From Flagellimonas hadalis (GTDB taxonomy: Bacteria; Bacteroidota; Bacteroidia; Flavobacteriales; Flavobacteriaceae), in the NCBI RefSeq assembly GCF_007785775.2, contig NZ_VNIK02000001.1, positions 546,678 to 610,677 on the forward strand: 64,000 bases of DNA, written 5' to 3'. The position numbers and the translations under genes were made by a program. The notes beneath the pieces are model-generated. The model had not been told where the DNA came from and searched no databases. It saw only the letters and a list, made by a program, of their open reading frames with translations. Below are positions 9,047 through 30,679 of this stretch, piece by piece. Numbering within the stretch: position 1 is the first letter of the stretch; each line of letters opens with the position of its first letter.

Positions 9047-9137
9047 CGGACAGAAGTTCAAGGCACGAGTTCAAACACAAGGACAAAAGACTGATTGGAA
9101 TAACCAAATAACTCAATAACACAATAACCACAGATAA
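9047..9137 (+). repeat. Low-complexity intergenic array between the leuA-like gene and leuB
   Basis: Two word types follow one another: AGTTCAAGGCACGAGTTCAA (reverse of the CTTGAACT word found elsewhere) and an 8-base periodic stretch AATAACCA-AATAACTC-AATAACAC-AATAACCA. The second is the reverse complement of the GTTATTGG array at 22.1 and 32.0 kb. Confidence 0.6.
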
Positions 9138-15916: not shown

Positions 15917-17650
15917 TTACTTCAATAAGATATCGGAGATGGAAGCTCCTGTCGGAACCATTGGGAACACATTGTCTTCCTTCTCTACCCGAACCTCCAA
16001 GAAATAAGGGTCTTTGGACGCCATCATTTCCTCCACGGCTTCCTTCAGATCGGAACGCTCCACTACCCTTCTGGCCTTGATGTGATAGCCTTCGGCGATT
16101 TTCACGAAATCAGGATTGGTCATTACGGTTGAGGCGTAACGTCTTTCAAAGAAAAGTTCCTGCCATTGGCGCACCATCCCCAAGTGATCGTTGTTGAGGA
16201 CCACAATTTTAACGGGAAGATTGTGTTGGAAGATAACCCCAAGCTCCTGAATGGTCATTTGGTACCCACCATCGCCGATGATAGCAACAACTTCACGCTC
16301 CATGGCGCCCATTTTGGCACCGATGGCCGCTGGAAGGGCAAATCCCATGGTGCCCAAACCACCAGAAGTGATGTTACTTTTGGTCTGTTTGAACTTGGCA
16401 TACCGACAAGCTATCATCTGGTGCTGTCCCACATCGCTAACAATTACAGCCTTATGTCCAGAAGCCACATTGATCTGCTCAATGACTTCACCCATGGTAA
16501 GGCCCGGCTTGGTGGGATAGATATCCTTGTCAATTACGGTATCGTATTCGATTTGTCGCTTTTTCTCAAACTCGGCCACCCACTCCTTGTGCTCATTCTT
16601 GTTGACCAAGGGCAACAAAAGTTCCAAGGTTTGCTTGGCGTTGCCCAAAACGGCAACATCCACCTTTACATTTTTATTGACTTCCGCTGGATCTATCTCA
16701 AAATGAATGACCTTAGCTTGTTTGGCGTAGGTTTCCAGATTCCCGGTCACCCGGTCATCAAACCGCATCCCGATGGCAAGAAGCACATCGCATTCGTTGG
16801 TTAGCACATTGGGGCCGTAATTTCCGTGCATGCCCACCATGCCCATGTTCAGCGGGTGGTCGGTATCCATGGCTGAAAGTCCCAAAATGGTCCAAGCTGC
16901 AGGGATTCCCGCTTTTTCGACCAATGCCTTCAGTTCTTCCTCGGCCTCGCCCAAAATAACACCTTGTCCAAAAACGATATAGGGTTTTTTGGCGTTGTTG
17001 ATCAATTCCGCTGCCTTTTCAATGGCTCCCATATCTGGCTTTGGAGCTGGTTTGTAGCTTCTCACCCCCGTGCATTTCTCATACACGAAATCCAACTCAT
17101 CAAACTGGGCATTTTTGGTGATGTCCACCAATACGGGGCCTGGGCGTCCCGACCTTGCAATGTAGAATGCCTTGGCCATGATTTCGGGGATTTCATCCGC
17201 CCGGGTAATCTGGTAGTTCCATTTGGTCACCGGGGTTGAAATGCCTACGATATCGGTTTCCTGAAAAGCATCTGAACCCAACAAATGCCGTGCCACCTGC
17301 CCGGTGATACAGACCATTGGCGTAGAATCTATCTGGGCATCGGCGATACCTGTCACCAAGTTCGTGGCTCCGGGACCGGAAGTGGCCATGGCCACCCCCA
17401 CTCTTCCGCTTACCCTTGCGTACCCCTGTGCAGCATGGGTCGCCCCTTGCTCATGTCGGGTAAGGATGTGGGTAAGCCTATCCTGAAACTTGTACAATTC
17501 GTCATACACGGGCATGATGGCCCCTCCGGGATACCCATAGATCAAATCCACACCCTCTGCCAACAAACAATGGATGATGGCCTCAGCTCCGGTGATACGG
17601 ATCGCTGTCTTTTTTTTCGTGTCTTTCTTTTCCGCTTTTAATGTTTCCAT
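15917..17650 (-). CDS. ilvB: Acetolactate synthase large (catalytic) subunit
   Basis: Thiamine-diphosphate enzyme making acetolactate or acetohydroxybutyrate. The 577-residue protein shows the TPP glutamate region GYPGGAIMPVYDEL, the FAD domain and the TPP motif GDGGYQMTIQEL near 450. It belongs to ilvD-ilvB-OMT-ilvN-ilvC-ilvA; the gap from ilvD is about 48 bases. Confidence 0.97.
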   Translation of the reverse strand: METLKAEKKDTKKKTAIRITGAEAIIHCLLAEGVDLIYGYPGGAIMPVYDELYKFQDRLTHILTRHEQGATHAAQGYARVSGRVGVAMATSGPGATNLVTGIADAQIDSTPMVCITGQVARHLLGSDAFQETDIVGISTPVTKWNYQITRADEIPEIMAKAFYIARSGRPGPVLVDITKNAQFDELDFVYEKCTGVRSYKPAPKPDMGAIEKAAELINNAKKPYIVFGQGVILGEAEEELKALVEKAGIPAAWTILGLSAMDTDHPLNMGMVGMHGNYGPNVLTNECDVLLAIGMRFDDRVTGNLETYAKQAKVIHFEIDPAEVNKNVKVDVAVLGNAKQTLELLLPLVNKNEHKEWVAEFEKKRQIEYDTVIDKDIYPTKPGLTMGEVIEQINVASGHKAVIVSDVGQHQMIACRYAKFKQTKSNITSGGLGTMGFALPAAIGAKMGAMEREVVAIIGDGGYQMTIQELGVIFQHNLPVKIVVLNNDHLGMVRQWQELFFERRYASTVMTNPDFVKIAEGYHIKARRVVERSDLKEAVEEMMASKDPYFLEVRVEKEDNVFPMVPTGASISDILLK

Positions 17651-17698
17651 AAGCCTATATTTTGGGGTTGTCCCGCTATGCTCTTCTGGAGCTCGTTT

Positions 17699-19375
17699 TT
17701 ATATCAAATCCGTTACACATCCCTTGGATGCTGATGAGACCGTCTTGGCATATTTGTACAAACTGCCCGATTTCACTTTCAATTCCGGCTGTTTCCACTC
17801 TTTTCTTCGCTTTTCCAGTTCTTCATCTGAAATGTTCATGTTGATGGTATTGTTTACGGCATCGATGGTAATTTCATCACCATCCTTCACCAAGGCAATT
17901 CCACCACCCACTTGCGCTTCAGGGGAAACGTGACCCACCACAAACCCATGGGAACCACCAGAAAAACGTCCGTCGGTGATCAAGGCCACGTCCTTTCCAA
18001 GACCAGCACCCATGATGGCAGAAGTCGGTTTCAACATTTCGGGCATACCGGGCGCGCCTTTGGGCCCTTCGTAGCGAATGACCACTACGTCACCTTTCTG
18101 CACTTTTCCATTGTGGATGCCTTGGTTCACTTCAATTTCACCATTGAAAACCCTTGCGGTTCCAGTGAAACTCAATCCTTCTTTTCCTGTGATCTTGGCC
18201 ACGGCACCTTCTGTTGCCAAATTGCCGTACAGGATGCGGATATGCCCTGTTTCCTTGATGGGCTGCTCCAAAGGCTTGATGATATCCTGACCTTCTGCCA
18301 AATCGGGAACATCCAAGAGGTTTTCTGCCAATGTTCTGCCCGTAACTGTCATACAATCCCCATGCAGCATGCCTTTCTTCAACATATATTTCAATACTGC
18401 CGGCACACCACCAATTTTATGAAGGTCTTCCATCAAGTATTTCCCACTGGGCTTCAAATCGGCCAACAACGGGGTCGATTCGCTGATACGTGTGATGTCT
18501 TCCAAAGAGAAATCCACCTCAGCGGCATGGGCAATGGCCATAAAATGCAATACGGCATTTGTGGAACCTCCCAAAACCGTCACCAACCGAAAGGCATTCT
18601 CCAACGCTTTTTTGGTCACGATGTCCTTGGGCTTCAAATCCATTTCCAAAAGGTTCATAATGGCTTCTCCTGCGGATTCACAATCAGCACCTTTGGCTGA
18701 GTTAACCGCTGGAATGGAAGAGTTAAAGGGCAATGACATGCCCATCGCCTCAATGGCCGAGGCCATGGTATTGGCGGTGTACATACCCCCACAGGCCCCA
18801 GCTCCCGGACATGCCTTGTGGATAACTGCCTTGAATTCTGTTTCATCTATGGTTCCCGCCACTTTTTGGCCATAGGCCTCGAAGGCAGAAATGATATCCA
18901 ATTTCTTATCGTTATGGCAACCAGGGGCAATGGTGCCTCCATAGACCAAAATTGAAGGCCTGTTCAGCCTTAATTGGGCCATAAGGGCTCCGGGCATGTT
19001 CTTATCGCAGCCCACAACGGTCACCAGTCCATCATAATACATGGCCTGCATCACTGTTTCGATGGAATCGGCGATGATGTCCCTCGATGCCAAGGAATAA
19101 CGCATTCCCGGAGTTCCATTGGAAATTCCATCACTAACGCCGATGGTATTGAAGATGAGTCCGACCATATTGGAAGCCTCCACTCCTCTTTTCACCTCTT
19201 TGGCCAATCCGTTCAAGTGCATGTTACAAGGGTTCCCCTCATAACCGGTACTGGCTATTCCAATAAATGGTTTTTGTAAATCTTCATCTGTGAGCCCCAA
19301 TGCATGCAACATGGCCTGGGCGGCCGGCAGCGTAGGATCTTGGGTCACGTTCTTGCTAAACTTGTTCAATTCCAT
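17699..19375 (-). CDS. ilvD: Dihydroxy-acid dehydratase
   Basis: Fe-S dehydratase giving 2-oxoisovalerate and 2-oxo-3-methylvalerate. The 558-residue product has the cluster cysteines in [16 protein letters not shown] and [15 protein letters not shown]. The ATG at 19375 (MELNKFSKN) is chosen over a TTG two codons earlier. First gene of the ilv operon. Confidence 0.97.
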
Positions 19376-19426
19376 TATCAAATTTCATTCTAATGCAGCG
19401 TTCTACTGAATTTATCTCTGCAAACC

Positions 19427-19434
19427 AAAGATAG
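19427..19434 (-). promoter_or_regulatory. -7 promoter element of the ilv operon
   Basis: On the minus strand TATCTTTG, a full TAnnTTTG match, 52 bases before the ilvD ATG, giving a leader of about 45 bases. Confidence 0.5.
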
Positions 19435-19571
19435 ATGTTTAAAAAGCCTTAGATTTTTAACAGAAAAGGGCTGTTTAAATCCATTTGGAACATAATAAAC
19501 TTTAATTGCTGTAAATCAACTACTTAAGCCATTTTAAAATCCAATATTCAATTATTTTCACCGGTAAAGAA

Positions 19572-19606
19572 AAAGGGCCTGCATCAGCTTTTGATACAGG
19601 CCCTTT
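19572..19606 (-). terminator. Terminator behind the pxp operon
   Basis: AAAGGGCCTG (19572-19581) pairs with CAGGCCCTTT (19597-19606); the inner TCA/TGA bases extend the stem. Read on the minus strand the hairpin is followed by TTTTTCTTT, placing it as the end of pxpA-B-C transcription. The alternative, an attenuator in front of ilvD, is less likely because the ilvD promoter lies downstream of it. Confidence 0.75.
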
Positions 19607-19746
19607 CCATCGACAGCACGTCTGTATCATTCCAGATTTGGAACAATAATGACCACGCTGATGACTGGATTATTTCTTTTCATGCTCCAATGTTACGAAA
19701 AATTTGGGTGTTATTCCACCATCCGATCAAAAAAAAGAATTGGAAC

Positions 19747-20586
19747 TCACACCAGTTTGAAGGTAAGCTTGTCCCCTGACTTTTTCTGGGCCAGGGTACA
19801 TATCGAATCTTCTGAAAGTTGCAAGACACGCGGATACCCTCCGGTGGTCTGCCCGTCCTTCATCAAAACGATCAATTTTCCGGCCGGAGTGAACTGCACC
19901 GTACCCGGCAAAGTACCCGAAGTGAGCATGGAATGGGAGTGCCCGGCTATGGTCTCCGAAAGTTGGTAGGCCATTCTATTGTTTTCCTTGGAAACGGTGA
20001 ATGTCTTCGTGAAGATCTCGGTGAGTTGGGCATCGGACAGGATGGAAAACTCAGGCCCCTTATACACTTCCAAATAGTTTTTATGGAAGTGCTCCTCTAT
20101 CTTCACCTCGGAAATAATGGGACTGTACGAAAGCATTTTGCCATATTTCACCTCATCGCCGTCCTTGAGTCTTTTTTTCTTGGTCACGGGAACAAATTGC
20201 GAACGGCTCCCCAAGACCACATCCGTCTGGAAACCTCCTTTTATGGCCAAATAGCCCCTAAAACCATCATCCAACCTGCCATAGGACAGGATATCCCCTT
20301 TGTCCACTTTCACCACATGATAGTTTTCTATGGGTTGATTGTTCAGGGTGGCGGAAATATGGGCACCGGACAGGCAGATGTAGGTAGGCTCATCAAATTG
20401 GAGCGTGGGGCCTGTCATGGTAATTTCCATCGCAGCGGCATTGGGGTCGTTTTCCAACAAGAGATTGGCCTTTTTTACAGATAGTACGTCCATCGCCCCC
20501 GAAATTGGAACACCGATGTCACGGTATCCGAACCGCCCCAAATCTTGAATGGTCACAAAAAAACCGGATTTCAACACTTTAAGCAT
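19747..20586 (-). CDS. pxpC: 5-oxoprolinase subunit PxpC (biotin-dependent carboxyltransferase-like fold)
   Basis: Third subunit of the bacterial ATP-dependent 5-oxoprolinase, which hydrolyses pyroglutamate to glutamate. The 279 residues match the KipA/AHS2 family: VTIQDLGRFGYRDIGVPISGAMD at the N-terminus, KGGFQTDVVLGSRS, and GTVQFTPAGKLIVLMKDGQTTGGYPR near the end. It overlaps the end of pxpB by 8 bases. Confidence 0.95.
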   Translation of the reverse strand: MLKVLKSGFFVTIQDLGRFGYRDIGVPISGAMDVLSVKKANLLLENDPNAAAMEITMTGPTLQFDEPTYICLSGAHISATLNNQPIENYHVVKVDKGDILSYGRLDDGFRGYLAIKGGFQTDVVLGSRSQFVPVTKKKRLKDGDEVKYGKMLSYSPIISEVKIEEHFHKNYLEVYKGPEFSILSDAQLTEIFTKTFTVSKENNRMAYQLSETIAGHSHSMLTSGTLPGTVQFTPAGKLIVLMKDGQTTGGYPRVLQLSEDSICTLAQKKSGDKLTFKLV

Positions 20587-21313
20587 CCAACGCTACTTTT
20601 TCTGGTTTATAAATGCCCACTTCTCCTTCTATTTTGTGCAGTTCGTATTCAGCTTTCGATATTTTTTCAAACTGGATTTTGTCCCCGACCTTAACAAAAC
20701 AGGGTTCTTTTGCATTGGGGTCGAACAAGGTGACCGGACAATTCCCGATGATGTTCCAGCCTCCCGGGGAGTCCTGCGGATAAATGCCCGTTTGTTTTGC
20801 CGCCAATCCCACGGAGCCTTTGGCCACCGCCAAGCGAGGTTCGGCCCTCCTTGGAATTTCAAGGGATGTAGGGAGTCCGCCCAAATACATGAAACCCGGC
20901 AAAAATCCGATGCCATAGACCACATATTGATGGGAAGTATGCTGATGGATGAGTTCTTCTATAGACAAACCCAAGGTTTTTGAAACTTCTTCGATATCGA
21001 TCCCAAATTCCAGGTCGTAGCATACTGGAATGGTCCACAAATGTCGTTTTCTTTTGATGGCTGGGCTTACTTGTTCGGCATAGCAGTCCAAAATGAGCTT
21101 TTTGACCTCTTCGAAATCCAAATGGTCCTCATTATAAACCATGGTCAGGGAATTGTAGGCCACGGACATCTCCCAACCTTGTATTTTGCGTTGCTTGAAG
21201 GCATCCATGAAATCGAGAATGTCTGCCAGAATGGATTCTTCAACTTTGTTGGGCCATTCGATCAAGACGGCCCGTTCTCCAAATGGTTTGATGGTGATGG
21301 GGTAACTTTTCAC
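20579..21313 (-). CDS. pxpB: 5-oxoprolinase subunit PxpB (KipI family)
   Basis: The 244-residue AHS1/KipI-family subunit, with PFGERAVLIEW at the start and GFLPGFMYLGGLP plus PRRAEPRLAVAKGSVGLAAKQTGIYP in the middle. The only start that preserves the family N-terminus is a GTG at 21313 overlapping the pxpA stop (GTGA), so translation is coupled. Confidence 0.95.
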   Translation of the reverse strand: MKSYPITIKPFGERAVLIEWPNKVEESILADILDFMDAFKQRKIQGWEMSVAYNSLTMVYNEDHLDFEEVKKLILDCYAEQVSPAIKRKRHLWTIPVCYDLEFGIDIEEVSKTLGLSIEELIHQHTSHQYVVYGIGFLPGFMYLGGLPTSLEIPRRAEPRLAVAKGSVGLAAKQTGIYPQDSPGGWNIIGNCPVTLFDPNAKEPCFVKVGDKIQFEKISKAEYELHKIEGEVGIYKPEKVALDA

Positions 21314-22053
21314 TTTTCTAGGTTCACCTGATGTTTGGGTAATTCCCGTGAAAGATACATCAATATTTCCAATGCCGAAGGAGTATCCCCGTGCACACAG
21401 AGGGTTTTTGCCTCTATTCTTCGGATTTTTCCATCCACAGCGGCAACAGTGCCTTCTTTTATTATGGGCAATATATGGTCCAAGACCTTTTTAGGGTCTT
21501 CAATCAGGGCTTTTTCACTTTTTCTGGACACCAAACTCAAGTCAGGATTGTAGTTTCTGTCCGCAAAGGCTTCGGGCCATACCTCAAAACCTATGGTCTG
21601 GGCCTTACTTGCCACCACAGACCCAAACGGGGCATACACAATGGTCGTGTTCTTATATTCCTTGATGGCCTCCAAATAGACATCGGCAGCCCCGGCATCT
21701 TTTGCCGTTTGGTTATACAAGGCGCCATGCGCCTTGATATGATGCAGTTGGTCACCTTCCTTTTTTAGGATGCTATTGAATGTGTCCAATTGATCTCTTA
21801 TACTTTGTATAAGCGCATCCGCAGGGATGTCCATCACTTCCCTTCCAAAATTGGCCTTGTCGGGGTACGATGGATGGGCACCTATTTTCACACGGTACTT
21901 TCGGGCCAATAGGATGACTTCCCGCATGCTCTGGACATCGCCCACGTGTCCGCCACAGGCAATATTGCATGAACTGATGAAGGGAAAAATATCGGCCTCA
22001 TTGCCTATTCCTTCCCCAACGTCACAGTTGATGTCCATTTTCCATGTTTTCAT
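21310..22053 (-). CDS. pxpA: 5-oxoprolinase subunit PxpA (LamB/YcsF family)
   Basis: The 247-residue LamB/YcsF polysaccharide-deacetylase-like subunit. MDINCDVGEG near the N-terminus, SSCNIACGGHVGD, IGAHPSYPD and KAHGALYNQ carry the acidic and histidine residues expected in the active site. First of pxpA-B-C; the transporter gene 118 bases upstream is on the same strand. Confidence 0.96.
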   Translation of the reverse strand: MKTWKMDINCDVGEGIGNEADIFPFISSCNIACGGHVGDVQSMREVILLARKYRVKIGAHPSYPDKANFGREVMDIPADALIQSIRDQLDTFNSILKKEGDQLHHIKAHGALYNQTAKDAGAADVYLEAIKEYKNTTIVYAPFGSVVASKAQTIGFEVWPEAFADRNYNPDLSLVSRKSEKALIEDPKKVLDHILPIIKEGTVAAVDGKIRRIEAKTLCVHGDTPSALEILMYLSRELPKHQVNLEK

Positions 22054-22171
22054 TTGATGGGTTGATATGTTATTGGGGTATTATGTTATTCATTTATTGG
22101 TTATTCAGTTATTGGTCATTGGTTATTGACCATTGGTTTCAGGTTTCCGTCTTCTAACTTTCGATTTCAAA
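22054..22171 (-). repeat. GTTATTGG word array between the transporter and pxpA
   Basis: The gap is filled by near-repeats of 7-9 bases (TTATTGGG, GTATTAT, GTTATTCA, TTTATTGG, TTATTCA, GTTATTGG, TCATTGG, TTATTGAC, CATTGG), then GTTTCAGGTTTCCG-like words. It is a member of the dispersed intergenic array family. Confidence 0.65.
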
Positions 22172-23368
22172 TCAAAACACTCCTGCTACTTTAAGGATGC
22201 TTTTTATCCCCAGAAAAATACTGAACAGCACTATGGCCAGTCCGAAGGCATTCTGAAGCATCGTGTTCTTGAACTGGCCCATAACGGACCTTTTGTTCAC
22301 CACCCAAAGCAACAATAGGGCCATGATTGGAAGCAACAGCCCATTGGCCACTTGGGCAAATTGTATCACTTCGATGGGTTTGATGTCGAAAGACAATGAG
22401 ACAACACCACAGAAAAGCACAAAGGCCCAGGTCCATTTGAATCGCTTGTCCTGCATGCCACCAGACCATCCAAAACAGCTACTAGCCACATAGGCCGCCG
22501 CCAATGGCGCGGTGATGGCCGAAGTAATCCCTGCGGCCAATAGTCCAACGGACATAAAGTAAACGGCCATTTTGCCGAAGAGGGGTTCCAGCCCCTTTGC
22601 CATGTCCAAAACTTGGTCCACATTGGCAATGGGAGCTGCTGAAGCGGTCACCAAAATGGCAATGGACACGATACCTCCCAAGGCAATGGATACAATCGTG
22701 TCCCATTTCACCTCCTTGATTCCGGTTTCTGACTTCCACTTCTCCTTGACCAAGGATGCATGTAAAAAAAGATTGTAGGGCACCACCGTGGTCCCGACCA
22801 AAGCGATGACGGTGAACAAACTCCCTTCCGGAAGGCTGGGCACGAACATCCCTTTCGTTATTTCCGTCAATGAGGGTTTGGTGATGATGGCACAAAGGAC
22901 AAAACTAGCTCCCATGATGCCCACCAAGCCTACAAAAATGCGTTCCAATATCTTATATGTACTGAACCAGAGCAACAGGAATATGAAAATCCCGATCAAC
23001 ATAGGCAAGTACGGTTTTGCCCATTCCTGGCCAACAAATTGTTCCAATCCCAAGGTCGCCCCACCTATATTCCCCGCCTCGTAGGCAGCGTTGCCGATGA
23101 GTATAGCCGCTAAAACCACGGTGATCACCGTTTTCTTCATCCAGGGTACTTTCAGCTCTTGACGTACCACATCCACCAGTCCACTTTGGGTGACCACTCC
23201 TATCCTACCTGCCATTCCCTGTAGCACAATGGTGGCCAAAATGGACACGGCCAAGGCCCAGATAAGGGCATATCCGAAGCGTGCCCCGGCCAAGGTGCAC
23301 ATTGCTATGGTTCCCGGTCCCACGAAGGCCGCTGCGACCAATACCCCCGGTCCTATTTTTTTAAACAT
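22172..23368 (-). CDS. Nramp-fold transporter lacking the metal-binding motifs; candidate 5-oxoproline transporter
   Basis: A membrane protein of 398 residues with about 11 hydrophobic segments, recognisable as the Nramp (SLC11) family. The two metal-site signatures are changed: the TM1 motif DPGN reads GPGT (17-20), and the TM6 MPH reads VPY (196-198, in VVPYNLFLHASLV). The Asp, Asn and Met that coordinate Mn2+/Fe2+ are therefore missing. It lies directly ahead of pxpA-B-C, and Bacillus subtilis has the same linkage (ycsG beside ycsF). A role in importing the organic substrate is inferred from this. Metal transport by another site is the alternative. Confidence 0.85.
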   Translation of the reverse strand: MFKKIGPGVLVAAAFVGPGTIAMCTLAGARFGYALIWALAVSILATIVLQGMAGRIGVVTQSGLVDVVRQELKVPWMKKTVITVVLAAILIGNAAYEAGNIGGATLGLEQFVGQEWAKPYLPMLIGIFIFLLLWFSTYKILERIFVGLVGIMGASFVLCAIITKPSLTEITKGMFVPSLPEGSLFTVIALVGTTVVPYNLFLHASLVKEKWKSETGIKEVKWDTIVSIALGGIVSIAILVTASAAPIANVDQVLDMAKGLEPLFGKMAVYFMSVGLLAAGITSAITAPLAAAYVASSCFGWSGGMQDKRFKWTWAFVLFCGVVSLSFDIKPIEVIQFAQVANGLLLPIMALLLLWVVNKRSVMGQFKNTMLQNAFGLAIVLFSIFLGIKSILKVAGVF

Positions 23369-23416
23369 TGCTCAGTTGGTTCATGCAATGAATTTAACAG
23401 GATATTGGGACAAACC

Positions 23417-23447
23417 ATGTATTTCGTCCAAAAAAATGTATTTCGTC
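23417..23447 (-). promoter_or_regulatory. Two direct repeats in front of the Nramp/pxp operon
   Basis: ATGTATTTCGTC occurs at 23417-23428 and again at 23436-23447, 19 bases apart, starting 49 bases from the transporter ATG. Read in the direction of the operon the unit is GACGAAATACAT. The position fits a regulator site, possibly for a pyroglutamate-responsive factor; no regulator gene is adjacent. Confidence 0.45.
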
Positions 23448-23552
23448 TAAAAAAGGGATGTTTTACATCGACCGATTATACGAATTTGCAAAAGCGAAAG
23501 TTATTATGATTACCAAATCGTACTACAAAACTTGAACTTGACTAACACACTT

Positions 23553-23996
23553 ATGACCTGTAAGGATTGTGGCAAAAGTATTGATCATCATCAGTACCGG
23601 GCATCCATGGATTCCCTTGGTGTTCAGCTTTGCGAAAGACATACTCGACTTATCAAAAAAGTCATCCTTGACAACGATACTCCCCCAGAAGCCGTCCAAC
23701 TCTTTTATGCTTTGAAGGAAGCCGGTGCCCATCCCATGTTGGAATGGTGGGACGGCAAAAAATCGGTCGATATTGCCATTTCAAGGGTAAAACTGAACAT
23801 TGAAATAGATAGGGATTATAGTAGGATAACCCACGAACAGGCCATAAGCGATCTTGAAGATGCCATGCACTCGTTCAAAAATGGGTTCACCACTATTCGA
23901 ATTCCCCATTTGGCCATCACCTATTATTTGGATGAAACCGTACAGAACATTTTGGGGATCATCTCCGGGCTCAAGGCAAACATCAAGGCCATCTAG
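23553..23996 (+). CDS. Small protein with zinc-ribbon start and PD-(D/E)XK-like nuclease core
   Basis: A 147-residue protein from the ATG at 23553 (MTCKDCGKSIDHHQYRAS); a TTG seven codons earlier is less likely. The N-terminal CKDC plus the later C-E-R-H could bind zinc. The core WWDGKKSVDIAISRVKLNIEIDRDYSR has the strand pattern V-D-I-A-I...I-E-I-D of DUF559/Vsr-like PD-(D/E)XK folds, and HEQAISDLEDAMHSFKNGFTTIRI follows as the family helix-strand pair. The function is unknown; nuclease activity is inferred from the motif only. Its stop overlaps the stop of the convergent cupin gene. Confidence 0.75.
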   Translation: MTCKDCGKSIDHHQYRASMDSLGVQLCERHTRLIKKVILDNDTPPEAVQLFYALKEAGAHPMLEWWDGKKSVDIAISRVKLNIEIDRDYSRITHEQAISDLEDAMHSFKNGFTTIRIPHLAITYYLDETVQNILGIISGLKANIKAI

Positions 23997-24403
23997 TCAC
24001 AAAACTGCAGACTATTATCCTTTTTGGTGAGCTTGTATTCCAAAATATTGATGATGATGGGGTGTTCGCCTATGTTCTCCAGATCGTTCACATAGTTTTT
24101 GCCCCTGTACTCAAAATATTCCGTATCCCCGGGATCCAGTTTTATCATGTCTATTTTGCCGTTTCCGTACCGGGTAAGGGCCAATCCCCCCGTAGTGCAG
24201 ACCCAACCATAGTTGGTATTGTGCCTTCGGAAAGGAATTCGTTCGCCCGGGGCCAAATGCAGATCCCAAAGCTTGACACTTTCGTTCTCAAATACCAATC
24301 TATTACTCAAAGACCTTGTTATATCTTGATGCAGCAACTCATCGATCTTCTCCTGCTCCCACGGGTCAAAGTTGCCCACTGGGTTCAATTCCACACATTG
24401 CAT
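23993..24403 (-). CDS. Small cupin-domain protein
   Basis: 136 residues from the ATG at 24403 (MQCVELNPVGNFDPWEQEK). A longer frame from 24511 adds 36 residues without conserved character. The middle (VKLWDLHLAPGERIPFRRHNTNYGWVCTTGG, then GDTEYFEYRGKN) is a single cupin barrel. The usual His-x-His pair is reduced, so metal binding is uncertain. The stop codons of this gene and the convergent upstream gene share the bases CTAG at 23993-23996. Confidence 0.7.
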   Translation of the reverse strand: MQCVELNPVGNFDPWEQEKIDELLHQDITRSLSNRLVFENESVKLWDLHLAPGERIPFRRHNTNYGWVCTTGGLALTRYGNGKIDMIKLDPGDTEYFEYRGKNYVNDLENIGEHPIIINILEYKLTKKDNSLQFCD

Positions 24404-24567
24404 TCTTATGAATTTTGAAAAATGGGTGCAAAAATACTCCATAACATACTCAAATCCAGATCGGTAAGGATATTTAACGTATTTTTTACACTTATTCCCC
24501 AAAAGGGTCATTCCATTGCCAATTCCATGGCCAAGTCCCTAAAATTTTGGATTTTTCAAAAATGGGT

Positions 24568-26103
24568 TTATCCCAACCAGCCTTCCCTATCCAAACTTCT
24601 GTATTGGATGGCTTCCGAAATATGGTTCTGGTTGATGTTCTCTGCCCTTTCCAGATCGGCAATCGTCCTGGACACCTTCAGGATCCGGTCATAGGCACGT
24701 GCCGAAAGATTCAGCCGTTGCATGGCATTTTTCAGCAATTCCTTGGAAGATTCGCCCAAAGGGCAAAACTGTCGTATGTGCTTGGTGTCCATCTGGGCAT
24801 TGTAATGGATGCCTTCCCATTCGGAAAATCGGGCAGTCTGGATGTCCCTTGCCACCTCCACCCTTTTCCGGATCTCCATACTGCTCTCCCCTTTTCGTTC
24901 TTCGGAGAGTTTTTCGAAAGGGACTGGGGTCACTTCAATATGGATATCGATCCTGTCCAGCAAAGGTCCTGATATCCTGCCCAAATAACGTTGCATCTCC
25001 GCAGGTGAAGAAGTGACAGGTGCGTCGGGGTCGTTAAAATAACCGCCTGGACTAGGGTTCATGCTCGCTACCAACATAAAACTGCTGGGATAGGTGACCG
25101 TGTATTGGGCCCGTGCAATGGTGACCTCCCTGTCTTCCATGGGTTGTCGCATCACTTCGAGGACCCTGCGCTCAAATTCGGGAAGCTCGTCCAAGAAAAG
25201 CACGCCGTTGTGCGATAAGGAGATTTCCCCGGGCTGTGGATAACTGCCACCACCGACCAGGGCAGCACTACTAATGGTATGGTGCGGACTCCTGAACGGG
25301 CGTTGGCTCATCAACCCCTTGTTTCTCACTTTGCCCACCACACTGTGGATCTTGGTGGTCTCCAAGGCTTCATGCAAGGTCATTGGAGGCAAAATGGAAG
25401 GCAACCGCTTGGCCAACATGGTCTTTCCTGCTCCTGGCGGACCTATCAAAATGATATTGTGTCCACCCGCTGCGGCAATTTCCATACAGCGTTTGATACT
25501 CTCCTGGCCTTTTACATCGGCAAAATCATGTTCCGGAAAGTTGAGATGTTCATAAAACTCTTGGCGGGTATCCACATAGGTCCGTTCCAAAGGGATTTCC
25601 AAATCAAAGAAATCCATCACCTCCTTGATGTTCTCCACGCCATAGACCTCAAGGTCCTTTACAATGGCGGCCTCGCTGGCATTTTCCTTTGGAAGTATAA
25701 ATCCTTTGAAACCCTCTTGTTGTGCCTTTATGGCAATGGGCAGGGCTCCTTTGATAGGTTGGAGGCTGCCGTCCAACGACAACTCACCCATGATGATATA
25801 GTTTTGGATGCCCTCCGACCTGATCTGGCCCGAAGCGGCCAAAATGCCCAATGCCAAAGTGAGGTCATAGGCCGAGCCTTCCTTTCTGAGATCGGCCGGG
25901 GCCATGTTGATGGTTATCTTTTTTCCCGGGATCTTGTACCCATTGTTCTGTAGCGCGGCAGCTATGCGGTAATTGCTTTCCTTGATGGCGTTGTCGGGCA
26001 GTCCCACCAAATGATAGCCTATACCCTTGTCCACATTCACTTCCACTACGACAGTGGTCGCCTCAATGCCGAAAACGGCACTGCCATGAATTTTTATCAG
26101 CAT
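24568..26103 (-). CDS. yifB: YifB/ComM-family Mg-chelatase-like AAA+ ATPase
   Basis: 511 residues: an N-terminal Lon-protease-like ChlI fold (about 1-160, ending in ILPKENASEAAIVKDL), an AAA+ core with Walker A GPPGAGKTMLAKR and Walker B LFLDELPEF, and the C-terminal Mg-chelatase lid domain. ComM is a hexameric branch-migration helicase needed for integrating DNA in natural transformation; the flavobacterial protein probably has the same role. It stands alone behind a terminator. Confidence 0.93.
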   Translation of the reverse strand: MLIKIHGSAVFGIEATTVVVEVNVDKGIGYHLVGLPDNAIKESNYRIAAALQNNGYKIPGKKITINMAPADLRKEGSAYDLTLALGILAASGQIRSEGIQNYIIMGELSLDGSLQPIKGALPIAIKAQQEGFKGFILPKENASEAAIVKDLEVYGVENIKEVMDFFDLEIPLERTYVDTRQEFYEHLNFPEHDFADVKGQESIKRCMEIAAAGGHNIILIGPPGAGKTMLAKRLPSILPPMTLHEALETTKIHSVVGKVRNKGLMSQRPFRSPHHTISSAALVGGGSYPQPGEISLSHNGVLFLDELPEFERRVLEVMRQPMEDREVTIARAQYTVTYPSSFMLVASMNPSPGGYFNDPDAPVTSSPAEMQRYLGRISGPLLDRIDIHIEVTPVPFEKLSEERKGESSMEIRKRVEVARDIQTARFSEWEGIHYNAQMDTKHIRQFCPLGESSKELLKNAMQRLNLSARAYDRILKVSRTIADLERAENINQNHISEAIQYRSLDREGWLG

Positions 26104-26129
26104 TTGGAAATTTTGTCAAATCAGGGCAA

Positions 26130-26150
26130 AAAATAGGCAAAGCCTATTTA
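26130..26150 (-). terminator. Terminator of the penicillin-acylase gene
   Basis: AAATAGGC (26131-26138) and GCCTATTT (26142-26149) form a stem with loop AAA; on the minus strand it is followed by TTTTTTG. It lies 74 bases behind the acylase stop codon. Confidence 0.8.
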
Positions 26151-26223
26151 CCAAAAGCCCATTGATTGACAATAGCGCGGTTTGAATTGATGGATAGCCC
26201 TTCCCAACCAATGGATGAAAAAA

Positions 26224-28617
26224 TCACTCTTTGGTGAAGGTGAGTATGGACTCGGCTTTTTCCTCGATTTCCTGTTTGTTCATCATCATTTTTCGGAACT
26301 CTCCCTTCACGTACATTTCAGCCTGGTCCTTGTAATGCTTGCTGAACGGATTTCCAGATTGTCCCGTGGGCAATATGCTGATACTGTTCTCAATATCCGA
26401 GAAATCAACAATCCTTCGTGTGGACGGTCCAGAACTTACTTTGTAAAATCCTGTGTCGTCATAAGGAAACGACAGGTTATTGATGACCTCACGGGTGCCT
26501 TCAACAGGAAATGGCCCCACATTGAAATACTTGCGAAGGGATTCCACTTGACCAATGGGGTGTTGGTGTTCCAAGGTGTGTACCTTGTTCCAGGTCCATT
26601 CGCTTGGGTCTGCCCCAAAATCGCTGACCAGAGACTCCCATGCATCGGCAAAGGATTTCATCACGATATCTTTTCGTGTTTCCACAACATCCTTGGTATG
26701 GACATTGTCCCACCATTTTCCACTTTCCATTTTGGCGCCCCAAGCAATTTGTCGCTTGAAAATGTGTGTGGCCAAAAACTGGTTGAACATTTCCGTGCCC
26801 AGTTCGTCCTCCATGGTGTTTTTGACCATATAGTATTCGCTTCTGTGGAACAATGTGGGACTGGTACTTGTCAACGTATATTCCCCGTTCCAGTTTTCAA
26901 GGGAATCCACCAACACCAACTGCTCTTGGGTCAAGAGGGACACATCGAACAGTTTGATCAGTTCGGTCACCAATTGTGTGTTAACAGGAGAAGTCACGTC
27001 CAAGATCATCTCGGAAACAGCCTCTTTGTCCCAATCATCCTTGGTATCCAAAAGCTGCACGATCCTTCTTGCCCTGTTCTCGGGCAGGTAATATCCGGGA
27101 TACAGCATCCCTGCAATGGAATCGGGCTGGTTATTTGCGGAATAAACGTAGTTCCACGGCGGATTTTCTGCACTTGGGTTTTCTGAAAAATCCAAATAGC
27201 GCAATGGTTCTTCTTTCCCTGAGGTGCCGTCCAAAATATACTTGGTGGACAGGCTGTCCGGCATTTGATAGAGTTTTGCCGTGGCCCACCAGCCTACGTT
27301 GCCCTCGGCGTCACCGTACATCACATTCAGTCCAGGGGCATGGATCTTGGGCAATGCATTTTTGAATTCTTCCAGATTGGTGGCGTGGCTCAGTCCATAA
27401 AGGGCGTCCATCACCTCGTTCTTGGGTTTGGTGTATATCCACGACATGGACACGGGCCTTTCCCCTGAAATCTGATCGGCAATTTGGTTCAACACAGGTC
27501 CGTGCTGTGTTTTTCGGTAGGTGAAGGAAACATCTTTCCCATCCTTTACCTTGATGGTCTTGGTCACATACCCGTATTCTTTCCATCCTTCGGCGGTCTT
27601 GTACTTGGTGCTGTCGGATGGATGTGTTTCCTCGTAATAAAAATCAATGTCGTCATTCTCGAACATGGTCAGCCCGTAGGCCAAATTCCTGTCGTGCCCC
27701 AATAGCGGAAATGGCACACCGGCCAAATGATAGCCATATTTTTCATAGGTGGGCGTACTGATATGCGCTTCGTACCATACGGATGGTTGGGCAAACCCGA
27801 TGTGGGGATCGTTGGCCAGGATCACCTTGCCGTTCTTGGTCTTCTGTGGGGCAATTACCCAACTGTTGCTCCCCTCAAATTGTGGAATCGGCAATTTTTC
27901 CAAGGCTGCCGTCACACTGGTCGTAATATTTGAAGCCAGCGAATCCGTGTTGATCCCTTTGTAGTTCTTGATCCAGACCGTTGAGGTATCGGAACCTATG
28001 GCAAGGTCCTTCATGTATTCCTCACCCAATTTTTTCCTCATACTGGTCAGTAGAGGGTCTGTTTTGTGCGCCATGGCGAAACTGAAGGCCATGTAGCCCA
28101 CTGCATTGTGAATGTCCTCCAAAGAAAAAGGTTCCTTATCCAGTCCAGTAAGGTAAAACTCGATGGGTGTGGGGCCCTTTTCGATAAATTCGTTGATTCC
28201 GTCCAAATACGCTTGTGAAAGGATGGCGGTTCTGCCATTCAAGTCTGTATTGGACACTGTTTCTGCCGAATTGTCATCAATACCCAAGGAAAGAAAGAAT
28301 TTATCGGTTTTCAAGAGGTCTTTGCCAAATACTTCGGAAAGCCTACCCTTGGCCACTCGTCTCAACAGTTCCATTTGCCACAAACGGTCCTGCGCATGCA
28401 CGTAGCCCAATGCCCTAAGGGCATCTTCTTCTTTGTCCGCATATATGTGGGGGATTCCGTAAGTATCATAAAGTACTTTGACCTCACTGTCCAATCCTGT
28501 CAATGTCTTTTTTCCACTGTAATCAGGCTTGAGGCCGTTCAAGAAAATGGCAATGCCAATGAGAGCCAACAGAATCAACCCTGCAATAAACAGAAGTACT
28601 TTTTTTAGTTTTTTCAC
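26224..28617 (-). CDS. Penicillin acylase family protein (Ntn hydrolase)
   Basis: A 797-residue precursor with an N-terminal membrane anchor (KVLLFIAGLILLALIGIAIFL). The family hydrolyses amide bonds of acylated amines, such as acyl-homoserine lactones and beta-lactams, after autocatalytic cleavage. The cleavage/nucleophile site is visible as GSNSWV with Ser250; the segment before it is the alpha chain and spacer, and the rest the beta chain, with ILANDPHIGF directly after. The only start in front of the anchor is a GTG at 28617. The natural substrate is not predictable from sequence. Confidence 0.92.
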   Translation of the reverse strand: MKKLKKVLLFIAGLILLALIGIAIFLNGLKPDYSGKKTLTGLDSEVKVLYDTYGIPHIYADKEEDALRALGYVHAQDRLWQMELLRRVAKGRLSEVFGKDLLKTDKFFLSLGIDDNSAETVSNTDLNGRTAILSQAYLDGINEFIEKGPTPIEFYLTGLDKEPFSLEDIHNAVGYMAFSFAMAHKTDPLLTSMRKKLGEEYMKDLAIGSDTSTVWIKNYKGINTDSLASNITTSVTAALEKLPIPQFEGSNSWVIAPQKTKNGKVILANDPHIGFAQPSVWYEAHISTPTYEKYGYHLAGVPFPLLGHDRNLAYGLTMFENDDIDFYYEETHPSDSTKYKTAEGWKEYGYVTKTIKVKDGKDVSFTYRKTQHGPVLNQIADQISGERPVSMSWIYTKPKNEVMDALYGLSHATNLEEFKNALPKIHAPGLNVMYGDAEGNVGWWATAKLYQMPDSLSTKYILDGTSGKEEPLRYLDFSENPSAENPPWNYVYSANNQPDSIAGMLYPGYYLPENRARRIVQLLDTKDDWDKEAVSEMILDVTSPVNTQLVTELIKLFDVSLLTQEQLVLVDSLENWNGEYTLTSTSPTLFHRSEYYMVKNTMEDELGTEMFNQFLATHIFKRQIAWGAKMESGKWWDNVHTKDVVETRKDIVMKSFADAWESLVSDFGADPSEWTWNKVHTLEHQHPIGQVESLRKYFNVGPFPVEGTREVINNLSFPYDDTGFYKVSSGPSTRRIVDFSDIENSISILPTGQSGNPFSKHYKDQAEMYVKGEFRKMMMNKQEIEEKAESILTFTKE

Positions 28618-28699
28618 TACCTTTTAGGTTAAGTCGATTACCTCCCTAAGGTAAAACTAATTTCCTGACCCTTTAAAAAAAAGTAAAAGGACTTACCAA

Positions 28700-30679
28700 T
28701 TATTTGTCCATGGAAAGATGGTGCTTTTCCAAGCCCGATCTTAGCCATTCCCCGTAGGTTTCCACATCCACATATTGGACAGCGTCGTTCAAAATTTCGA
28801 GATTGGGAGAAAGTAGCACGTAGTAGGGTTGCGAGGCCGCATTGAAGTTGATGGTCTGGAAAGTCCCCCACTTTTGGCCCACGGTCTCAATGGCCTTTAT
28901 CCGTCCGGAATCGTATTTGAAGTCGAACCTTTCTTCTTCGGGAAGTTCCTTTCTGTCGTCCACGTAGAGGGAGATCAGCACATATTCGTCCTTCAAAAGG
29001 GGATAGATGCTACTGTGGCTCCATACGTTTTCTTCCATCTTTCGGCAATTCACACATGCCCACCCCGTGAAATCGAGCAAAATGGGTTTGTTCACGGCTT
29101 TGGCATGGGCCACACCTTCTTCAAAGTCCTTGAAACAATCCAAACCAAGGGGGCAATCGCTTTCGGTTTCGATTACACTGTAAAAATCCGGGGGCGGAAA
29201 TCCACTCAATAATTTCAAATGGGTCACCTGGAAAAGGCCCAGTATCAAATACACCGAAAATGCCAAACTCAATACGCCAAAGATTTTTCGGGTCGTGGTC
29301 AGTTTTTTCTTTGGACCATCATGCGGAAAACGAAACAGCCCGAACAAATACAGGGTCATCAGCATAAAGAGCACTATCCAGATACCGACAAAGATCTCTC
29401 TTTTCAACAATCCCCAATTGCCCACCAAATCGGCATTGGAAAGGAACTTGAAGGCTAGGGCCAGCTCCAAAAAGCCCAAAACGACTTTCACGGTGGTCAT
29501 CCATCCGCCCGATTTGGGCAAGGAGTTCAACCAGGCCGGGAACATGGCAAACAATGCAAATGGCAGGGCCAAGGCCAAACCAAAACCGACCATTCCCGCC
29601 GATAGGTTGGTCGCGACATTGCCTTCAGCCAGCGTAGTGCTCCCCAGCAGTCCGCCCAAAATGGGGCCGGTGCACGAGAAGGACACTATGGCCAAGGTCA
29701 GCGCCATGAAAAAGATACCCAATCCCCCTCCTACTTTGGACGAGGCGGAGTCCATCTTGTTGGCCCAAGAGCTGGGTAGGGTCAGTTCATAATAACCGAA
29801 AAATGAAAAGGCAAAAAAGACGAAAATGATGAAGAAGAACACGTTGAGCCAAACATTGGTGGCAATGGTGTTCAGTATCTGCGAGTCCACCGAATTGAAC
29901 AAATGGAAGGGCAAGCTCAGCAAGAAGTAGATCAAAACGATGAAAAATCCATAGAGAACGGCATTTCCGATGCCCTTGGACTTGTTCTGCGTATGTTTGG
30001 TGAAAAAGGAGACCGTCAACGGGATCATGGGAAACACACATGGAGTCAACAAGGCGATGAGCCCGCCCAAAAATCCAAGCCCAAAGATCATCCATAGGTT
30101 GGATTTTCCTTCAGCGTCCATTTGTGCTCCCTGGTTCAAAAGGTGTTTGTTCTTCAAGTCCACCTTCAACGACTCCCCCAAGGCCACACTTCTTTCGTTC
30201 AACTCCTTGTTCTCTGCCACAAAGGTGCTGCCATCCAAGGAAATCTGGAAAAGATGGTCCATGGGAATACAGACTTCCTTGCAGATTTGGTAAAACAGGT
30301 TCACCGAAATCTGGTTGACCTCTGGGTTGAGCAGTTTTATCTTTTGGGTGAAGATGGCCTCTTTCTTGAAGAAAGTCTCATCCACTTCAAAAATGTCACT
30401 GTACTCGGTGATGGTCTCGCTTTCCTCAGTTTTACCTACGAGTTCGTAATCCTCCCCTGCTTTTTCAAAAGTGAATTCACTGGGCAGCGAACCTCCTTCG
30501 GCCGTGTATTGGGAATAGACGTGCCATCCGTCCATGATTTTTCCCGTGAAGACCAGTTCGTATTCCGTGTCCGATATTTTATGGACTTCGTGGCTCCAAA
30601 CGGCAGGGTTGGCCTCTGTTTGGGCAAATGCGACCAGATTGATGAAGATTGATCCTAAAAAAAGTAAAAATGACCTCAT
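28700..30679 (-). CDS. dsbD: DsbD-type thiol:disulfide interchange protein
   Basis: A 659-residue membrane protein carrying electrons from cytoplasmic thioredoxin to the periplasm. Order: signal peptide (MRSFLLFLGSIFINLVAFAQ), N-terminal DsbC-like domain with C-K-E-V-C, a CcdA-like membrane domain of eight segments (with LLTPCVFPMIPLTVSFF and SCTGPILGG), and a C-terminal thioredoxin domain with CVNC (C542/C545). A longer frame from 30895 would overlap tilS; the ATG at 30679 overlaps the tilS stop by 4 bases and is chosen. Confidence 0.95.
   Translation of the reverse strand: MRSFLLFLGSIFINLVAFAQTEANPAVWSHEVHKISDTEYELVFTGKIMDGWHVYSQYTAEGGSLPSEFTFEKAGEDYELVGKTEESETITEYSDIFEVDETFFKKEAIFTQKIKLLNPEVNQISVNLFYQICKEVCIPMDHLFQISLDGSTFVAENKELNERSVALGESLKVDLKNKHLLNQGAQMDAEGKSNLWMIFGLGFLGGLIALLTPCVFPMIPLTVSFFTKHTQNKSKGIGNAVLYGFFIVLIYFLLSLPFHLFNSVDSQILNTIATNVWLNVFFFIIFVFFAFSFFGYYELTLPSSWANKMDSASSKVGGGLGIFFMALTLAIVSFSCTGPILGGLLGSTTLAEGNVATNLSAGMVGFGLALALPFALFAMFPAWLNSLPKSGGWMTTVKVVLGFLELALAFKFLSNADLVGNWGLLKREIFVGIWIVLFMLMTLYLFGLFRFPHDGPKKKLTTTRKIFGVLSLAFSVYLILGLFQVTHLKLLSGFPPPDFYSVIETESDCPLGLDCFKDFEEGVAHAKAVNKPILLDFTGWACVNCRKMEENVWSHSSIYPLLKDEYVLISLYVDDRKELPEEERFDFKYDSGRIKAIETVGQKWGTFQTINFNAASQPYYVLLSPNLEILNDAVQYVDVETYGEWLRSGLEKHHLSMDK

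Follow-up and report, generated by a model that had tools for sequence, protein, structure and literature searches.

A 64,000-nucleotide stretch of the Flagellimonas hadalis genome (hereafter the window, meaning this whole stretch) encodes on its reverse strand an Nramp-family (PF01566) transporter of the GPGT/VPYN branch (22172..23368; 398 codons plus stop) that, as judged from sequence, is probably a secondary importer with the LeuT fold, taking up 5-oxoproline (pyroglutamate) or a small lactam acid very close to it. The Nramp family is known for carrying metals, and annotated relatives of the window protein bear the name divalent metal transporter. The importer reading is supported by a fold predicted to be that of Nramp, by metal ligands that have been lost, by the operon in which the gene lies and by an association with oxoprolinase-type enzymes that survives replacement of one such enzyme by an unrelated one. 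The branch of Nramp-related proteins to which the window protein belongs lies apart from YcsG and PxpT and would most likely consist of 5-oxoproline importers.

A predicted Nramp fold with the metal site gone

The window protein matches PF01566 with 296.3 bits against a cut-off of 29.8 (residues 23-369 on profile positions 3-356 of 357), and its AlphaFold2 (AF2) model (78 sequences; mean pLDDT 89.3, pTM 0.88) lies closest among solved structures to DraNramp (Z 48.6, root-mean-square deviation (rmsd) 2.3, 375 residues aligned), with EleNRMT (7qia/7qji; Z 45.9, rmsd 2.5, 383 aligned) and BfraNramp (Z 44.5, rmsd 2.5, 368 aligned) also close. The model further aligns with an integrative model of B. 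subtilis YcsG (YcsG-FabL, 9a52; Z 40.3, rmsd 3.3, 380 aligned, 21% identity) and with the amino acid carrier AdiC (Z 30.7, rmsd 3.9, 366 aligned). Transmembrane helices 1 and 6 (TM1 and TM6) are broken mid-helix in the model, at residues 16-17 and 195-196, and fold and breaks together place the protein in the LeuT-fold APC superfamily. The predicted fold is that of Nramp, with the metal site gone.

TM1 of the window protein reads AAFVGPGTIAM and TM6 reads GTTVVPYNLFLHA. In the unwound part of TM1, GPGT (codons 17-20; 23309..23320, reverse strand, as are all segments given here) replaces DPGN, and the TM6 segment GTTVVPYNLFLH (codons 192-203; 22760..22795) stands where canonical relatives have GATVMPHNLYLH. 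In alignments with BfraNramp, EleNRMT and human DMT1, Gly17 and Thr20 occupy the places of the canonical Asp and Asn of TM1, and Thr193, Val196 and Tyr198 those of the canonical Ala, Met and His of TM6. TM3 carries YEAGNIGG (codons 96-103; 23060..23083), whose Asn100 aligns to the canonical TM3 Glu, and TM10 carries AQVANG (codons 338-343; 22340..22357). The TM3 alignment is uncertain, because phmmer pairs a TM3 Glu of human DMT1 near Glu97 with a gap; Glu97, three residues ahead of Asn100, is an acid kept in TM3 (E in 34/38 loci, Q in 4/38) of a census of 38 loci, window included, that was assembled by BLAST-type searches with no motif requirement. Throughout this census positions 17, 20, 193, 196, 198, 100, 339 and 342 are G, T, T, V, Y, N, Q and N (38/38), and because all 38 loci, found without regard to the motif, carry G, T, T, V and Y, its loss is not due to chance. 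The original prediction, made from the letters alone, had described a kept Nramp fold in which TM1 GPGT and TM6 VPY remove the metal ligands; the AF2 model, the rechecked codons and the agreeing alignments bear this out. The aligned pocket positions hold neither an acid nor His and would be better suited to an anion than to a dication.

The same genome encodes two further Nramp-family proteins (contigs C45 and C23; loci L002 and L003), of which one reads GPSK in TM1 and the other is highly divergent.

Linkage to oxoprolinase genes

The transporter gene stands at the head of a same-strand operon, as had been claimed from the letters and as the Pfam assignments uphold: pxpA (LamB/YcsF family, 5-oxoprolinase subunit A; 21310..22053) follows after 118 nt, pxpB (CT_C_D; 20579..21313) overlaps pxpA by 4 nt and pxpC (CT_A_B; 19747..20586) overlaps pxpB by 8 nt, all on the reverse strand. 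PxpA passes its NCBIfam subfamily model (250.6 versus 226) and PxpB its equivalog (167.3 versus 145.6), while PxpC falls under its own NCBIfam cut-off (196.6 versus 500) and slightly under the family-level one (224.5 versus 230.2).

An evenly drawn sample of 148 Bacteroidota genomes, queried with the window protein, yielded 35 full-length members of the clade including the window; neighbourhoods of the other 34 loci spanned about 13 kb each, one being shorter (7.6 kb). We counted a locus as linked when an oxoprolinase-type gene (Pxp or HyuB) lay within 6 kb of the transporter gene. The pxp genes were found at 20/23 close relatives (at least 41% identity to the window protein), or 21/24 once the window is counted, and HyuB, alone or joined by HyuA, at 8/11 more distant ones (33-38% identity), so that 29/35 loci are linked to one enzyme type or the other. 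At the 28 linked loci besides the window, the nearest enzyme gene always shares the strand of the transporter gene and at 26 of them is no more than 100 nt away. Neither enzyme occurs at any of 26 control Nramp-family loci (Fisher p 1.4e-11), which were picked by hand from weaker matches of the same search and from the window's own genome; one of them (L097) has no BLAST match to the window protein and two (L079 and L084) are short stretches. This test and the one below count loci or genomes as independent although they are related, and are uncorrected for kinship. In a clustering of neighbouring genes, which took in only loci whose Nramp protein is at least 33% identical to the window protein, 5/6 canonical DPGN loci adjoin one common gene family, an iron-dependent-repressor family regulator as judged from the one member tested.

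The association also holds at the level of whole genomes. PxpA exceeds its cut-off in 34/148 Bacteroidota genomes and HyuB in 22/148; all 36 genomes with a clade member have PxpA (27) or HyuB (9) and none has both, against 20/112 other genomes with one of them (Fisher p 2e-20). The 36 include a genome (G128) in which the transporter gene, next to PxpA, runs off the end of a contig. Beyond this sample, a scan of named genomes for AAF[IV]GPGT[VI] or L[IV]GTT[VI]V[PG]Y returned at least 598 matches, of which 589 were confirmed and the best 80 used; motif conservation among these 80 depends on the motif search, whereas the 38-locus census is independent of it. Within 6 kb, 53 of the best 80 loci are linked, 46 to Pxp and 7 to HyuB, and 27 have neither. 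Linked members occur in Bacteroidota, Alpha- and Gammaproteobacteria, Streptomyces, a Clostridia genome and Alkalihalobacillus, and on haloarchaeal plasmids HyuA directly follows the transporter gene in 6/7 loci inspected among 23 such records listed.

Exchange of the partner enzyme

The HyuA/HyuB partner is presumably an enzyme of the OPLAH/hydantoinase type, a group membership that fits the record names 'hydantoinase/oxoprolinase'. A maximum-likelihood tree was built from 68 hand-picked proteins; in it the GPGT/VPYN clade comprises 42 rows with support 100/99, and Pxp- and Hyu-linked members are intermixed within the clade, requiring at least four partner changes among 25 linked rows. A tree that holds all Hyu-linked rows together is 123 log units worse and is rejected (approximately unbiased (AU) test, p 3.6e-36). 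PxpABC and the unrelated HyuA/HyuB have thus been swapped beside the same transporter clade at least four times. That the transporter stays while the enzyme changes points to the lactam as what both enzymes have in common, and a small lactam, most probably 5-oxoproline, would be the simplest factor that the PxpABC and HyuA/HyuB partners share.

Two positions differ with the partner: His203 and Cys24 occur in 21/21 Pxp-linked members, while Hyu-linked members have Ala24 (11/11) and mostly Gly203 (8/11). The difference possibly reflects tuning to the substrate; kinship could also explain it. None of the NCBIfam models reached its cut-off for the four Hyu proteins tested, and the PDB entries nearest to a fused Hyu enzyme (locus L105) are two, a 1288-residue N-methylhydantoinase and a caprolactamase-type entry (6yra) in which the chain bears the name 5-oxoprolinase.

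A separate branch of YcsG-type transporters

The original prediction had drawn a parallel with ycsG-ycsF of Bacillus. Its linkage to oxoprolinase genes is real, but the transporter there belongs to a different and divergent Nramp-related branch, whose proteins are 19-22% identical to the window protein in alignment. Domibacillus robiginosus carries both types: a GPGT-type gene with no oxoprolinase neighbours and, elsewhere in the genome, an operon (L190) encoding PxpB, PxpC, a biotin carrier, a biotin carboxylase, a D-glutamate cyclase, an IclR regulator, PxpA and an Nramp-family protein with GPGFLTQ in TM1 and GGTVGGY in TM6. We take this gene content to match the B. subtilis ycs/kip operon and call the type YcsG accordingly. 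In the tree the YcsG type forms its own branch (support 100/100) on a stem of 4.2 changes per site, and YcsG as an orthologue of the window protein was rejected on this separate branch and the identity of about 21%. Forcing the YcsG type and the GPGT clade together is not rejected and gives a slightly better likelihood (p 0.678), so one origin of the two is possible.

In seven YcsG-type rows the positions of the TM1 Asp, TM3 Glu and TM6 His hold Gly, Asn and Tyr. YcsG-type genes lie in a cluster with pxpA at 8/8 loci inspected and within 5 kb of it for 44/55 matches in Bacillales, and most of the inspected clusters also contain genes for D-glutamate cyclase and biotin carboxylase; on plasmids, YcsG-type relatives lie within 4 kb of PxpA in Bacillus badius, Moraxella, Shinella, Lactiplantibacillus, Klebsiella and Deinococcus. 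At a cut-off of 1e-40, 54 of 120 Bacillales genomes match a YcsG-type query and 7 match the window protein. The genome of Alkalihalobacillus algicola (G173) carries both transporter types, each adjoining its own PxpA. At an A. baumannii locus (L208:4688-12145) a YcsG-type gene comes after a LysR-type regulator and before genes for PxpA, D-glutamate cyclase, a fused PxpB-PxpC and a biotin carboxylase that includes a biotin domain; from this order, which fits the published mumR-T-L-U-H-C operon (PMC5050338; here and below, citations refer to the passages of each paper that were available), we infer that MumT is of the YcsG type. Given the pxp-type gene content, the published urea carboxylase reading of the mum operon deserves a second look.

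Among the matches listed in the literature searched, which leaves most subscription journals outside, we found no paper that links an Nramp-family gene to HyuA/HyuB, none that separates the YcsG branch from the GPGT branch by gene neighbourhood and none that reads the mum operon as a pxp operon; nearest in print is a comparison of the mum and ycsG operons (PMC10448178).

Substrate of the transporter

We propose that the transporter would take up a lactam that feeds the ATP-dependent 5-oxoprolinase PxpABC encoded behind it, with glutamate as the product. The unwound TM1 (GPGT) and TM6 (VPY), Asn100 of TM3, and Gln339 and Asn342 of TM10 would form a neutral pocket for a lactam that bears a carboxylate, at the place where Asp, Glu and His stand in relatives that carry metal. 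The direction would be inward, and transport could be driven by an ion gradient or run downhill, pulled by the ATP-using enzyme. The original prediction had suggested 5-oxoproline or a related organic acid; the linkage of 29/35 loci and the repeated enzyme exchange speak for it, while the Mn data on the YcsG type (MntG, MumT) speak against it. Transport of 5-oxoproline by Nramp-family proteins has already been proposed in print, for YcsG and PxpT (PMC13274462). In C. glutamicum pxpT is needed for growth on 5-oxoproline, growth being restored in trans, and in the available text the authors do not exclude metal transport by PxpT (PMC13274462); in B. subtilis deletion of ycsG is reported to abolish the use of 5-oxoproline, and the deletion may have had a polar effect (PMC13274462, PMC10448178).

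Several observations weigh against 5-oxoproline as the substrate. Cellular Mn increased when ycsG (MntG) was overexpressed, and the promoter of pxpA is bound by MntR (PMC10448178); a mumT deletion reduced Mn as measured by inductively coupled plasma mass spectrometry, and it was complemented in trans (PMC5050338). The window protein passes the equivalog model NF037982, 'Nramp family divalent metal transporter' (102 versus 50 bits), over the stretch 6-205; this is a family name and not a tested function. The three Nramp-family matches in the window's genome include no DPGN type, so redundancy does not argue against a role in Mn uptake. Linkage is not universal: neither enzyme lies within 6 kb at 6/35 Bacteroidota and 27/80 named loci, and no oxoprolinase was found at 1/7 haloarchaeal and 2/2 proteobacterial plasmid loci inspected. 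Genome-wide presence of PxpA as evidence for members standing alone was rejected as weak, PxpA occurring in 116/120 Bacillales genomes. Finally, enzymes of the HyuA/HyuB type also cover hydantoinases and caprolactamase, and because this group is broader than 5-oxoprolinase the lactam of the Hyu-linked members may be 5-oxoproline or another.

Metal import is an alternative that we consider unlikely: the protein would take up divalent ions, Mn2+ most likely, and would stand beside the oxoprolinase because the enzyme or its pathway needs the metal, as has been proposed for MntG and MumT. The phenotypes of ycsG/mntG and mumT (PMC10448178, PMC5050338), the Nramp fold kept in the model, the NF037982 match and the transport of metal by NRMTs with a reduced ligand set (PMC8806188) are all in its favour. 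The Mn2+ and growth results for the YcsG type were, however, obtained in vivo, and the tested Mn importers sit on the other branch (YcsG by its 21% identity, MumT by inference from its operon); since YcsG is not an orthologue of the window protein, these experiments do not test the window's branch. The TM1 Asp is Gly in 38/38 loci, with Asn and Tyr at the TM3 Glu and TM6 His positions, whereas alanine at the TM1 Asp or the TM3 Glu abolishes metal transport by BfraNramp (PMC12873925), and an Asp in TM1 is listed for the Nramp, NRAT and NRMT motifs alike (PMC8806188). The neighbourhoods also differ, DPGN loci (5/6) adjoining the regulator-type family and GPGT loci oxoprolinases, and a cofactor role leaves the alternation of two unrelated ATP-dependent lactam hydrolases unexplained.

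It is improbable that the substrate is instead a neighbouring cyclic amide, for example a hydantoin or a D-form lactam, acted on by PxpABC or HyuA/HyuB. The relatives of HyuA/HyuB include N-methylhydantoinase, caprolactamase and acetophenone carboxylase, and genes of the Asp/Glu racemase family follow the operon on two haloarchaeal plasmids; yet most linked loci carry PxpABC, which is a 5-oxoprolinase in the species tested (PMC13274462). We give least credence to export of the lactam or of its product as relief from internal 5-oxoproline, or to a facilitator with no fixed direction: 5-oxoproline arises spontaneously within cells, and in B. subtilis it builds up both internally and externally when pxp genes are mutated (PMC13274462), but an exporter would be redundant beside a degrading enzyme, and PxpT, on the other branch, is needed for growth on the external compound (PMC13274462). 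Import of 5-oxoproline or a very close lactam acid is the reading that we retain, and the swap of two unrelated lactam hydrolases beside one transporter offers a route from gene order to substrate.

Unlinked members and neighbouring genes

Among the 27 unlinked named loci, 25 genomes were searched, and 21 have PxpA elsewhere; three of the remaining four have HyuB. A common metabolic partner of the unlinked members was rejected: their tested neighbours (selected ones, by Pfam) varied and included pyruvate-ferredoxin oxidoreductase, TrkH/TrkA, a chemotaxis receptor, TamB and others, and because of this variation we take these members to be solo genes. The solo gene of Domibacillus (L174) adjoins an arginase-family gene (L174:5962-6993), and a solo gene of SAR324 has carbon-nitrogen hydrolase and DUF2848 genes nearby (L156:5405-6172 and 8409-9122). 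Relatives on viral contigs numbered 0 among 74 pattern matches, and phage records gave seven weak matches to the window protein, at most 27.7% identical.

At 29 loci (e.g. L117:5911-7011, L111, L121, L137 and L161) the transporter gene is immediately preceded, on its own strand, by a DUF2891 (PF11199) gene, at spacings from 188 nt apart to 73 nt of overlap, and the start of the DUF2891 product is lipoprotein-like; no such gene was found in the window's genome. A model of the DUF2891 protein is closest to Campylobacter Cj0554 (Z 38.1, rmsd 2.4, 319 aligned), followed by sugar epimerases and unsaturated glucuronyl hydrolases (Z about 17, rmsd about 4, 270-290 aligned), and the protein could be a supplier of the transporter's substrate.

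In the window, the 163 nt between the transporter gene and a divergent open reading frame starting at 23532 (23369..23531) likely contain the operon promoter and match no Rfam family; across 17000-29000 no metal riboswitch or other RNA element scored at the Rfam gathering level. Scans for promoters and terminators over 19000-24000 gave counts near those of shuffled sequence (11 versus 7.8, standard deviation (sd) 2.9, and 5 versus 6.2, sd 2.5) and were not used. The divergent small gene (23532-23996, forward strand) weakly resembles a dual-CxxC small protein (21.8 versus 40 bits), and relatives of it (47-84% identity) lie on the opposite strand 180-1387 nt upstream of the transporter gene at 12 loci. 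Beginning 365 nt past the operon, a reverse-strand gene (17699-19381), which from its sequence we take to encode a dihydroxy-acid dehydratase, has relatives (71-79% identity) that come after the pxp operon at 10 loci.

Comparison with known families

Canonical Nramp/MntH proteins such as DraNramp and BfraNramp have the fold in common with the window protein, which lacks their DPGN, MPH and TM3 Glu and falls short of the MntH/Nramp NCBIfam subfamily cut-offs (PRK00701.1, 161.5 versus 430; TIGR01197, 108.7 versus 272.5). The NRMT Mg2+ transporters share with it the fold and a Thr at the TM6 Ala position (Thr193). They retain the TM1 Asp of a motif that combines DxxG in TM1 with TxxA/T in TM6 (PMC8806188), and the TM3 Glu is retained in NRMT-like rows; both are absent from the window protein, which is not an NRMT. 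YcsG/MntG, PxpT and MumT resemble the window protein in the PF01566 domain, the gene cluster with pxpA and the G, N and Y at the Asp, Glu and His positions, PxpT being placed in the YcsG type by its printed 50% identity to YcsG (PMC13274462). The YcsG type differs in TM1 (GPGF(L/I)TQ), in TM6 (GGTVGGY) and in forming its own branch, to which the window protein does not belong. A published classification puts MntG in G-motif 3 and, in its available text, calls the Nramp-related groups besides NRMT-like and G-motif 3 entirely uncharacterised (PMC12873925).

The window's branch fits the 'orphan' Slc11 outgroup already named in print (PMC10606218), residues of which (orphan/NRMT) were brought into Slc11 by mutation in that study. 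Compared by motif in h3, h6 and h10, the window protein has 8/8 outgroup (orphan/NRMT) residues: Y96 and N100 in h3, T193, V196 and Y198 in h6, and A338, N342 and G343 in h10. The spacing fits in h3 and h10, while h6 was matched by residue order, the printed h6 numbers being inconsistent (PMC10606218). NRMT-like rows, unlike the window protein, lack the outgroup V and Y of h6.

Tentatively, the orphan outgroup could be a widespread family of putative 5-oxoproline importers in bacteria and haloarchaea, an extension that we regard as plausible but slightly short of probable. If it holds, the outgroup and the YcsG type would jointly imply that, on branches outside the metal transporters, Nramp-related proteins used a neutral pocket to carry a small organic acid. 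The metal site of SLC11 might then derive from a carrier of organic acids, and the standing of MntG and MumT as Mn2+ importers would need re-examination. If the window's branch carries 5-oxoproline, many 'divalent metal transporter' names are wrong, and the two published Mn2+ importers without the ligands (MntG and MumT) become directly testable contradictions. The orphan outgroup, to which PMC10606218 in its available text assigns no substrate, would then gain one, namely that proposed here from the linkage to oxoprolinase genes.

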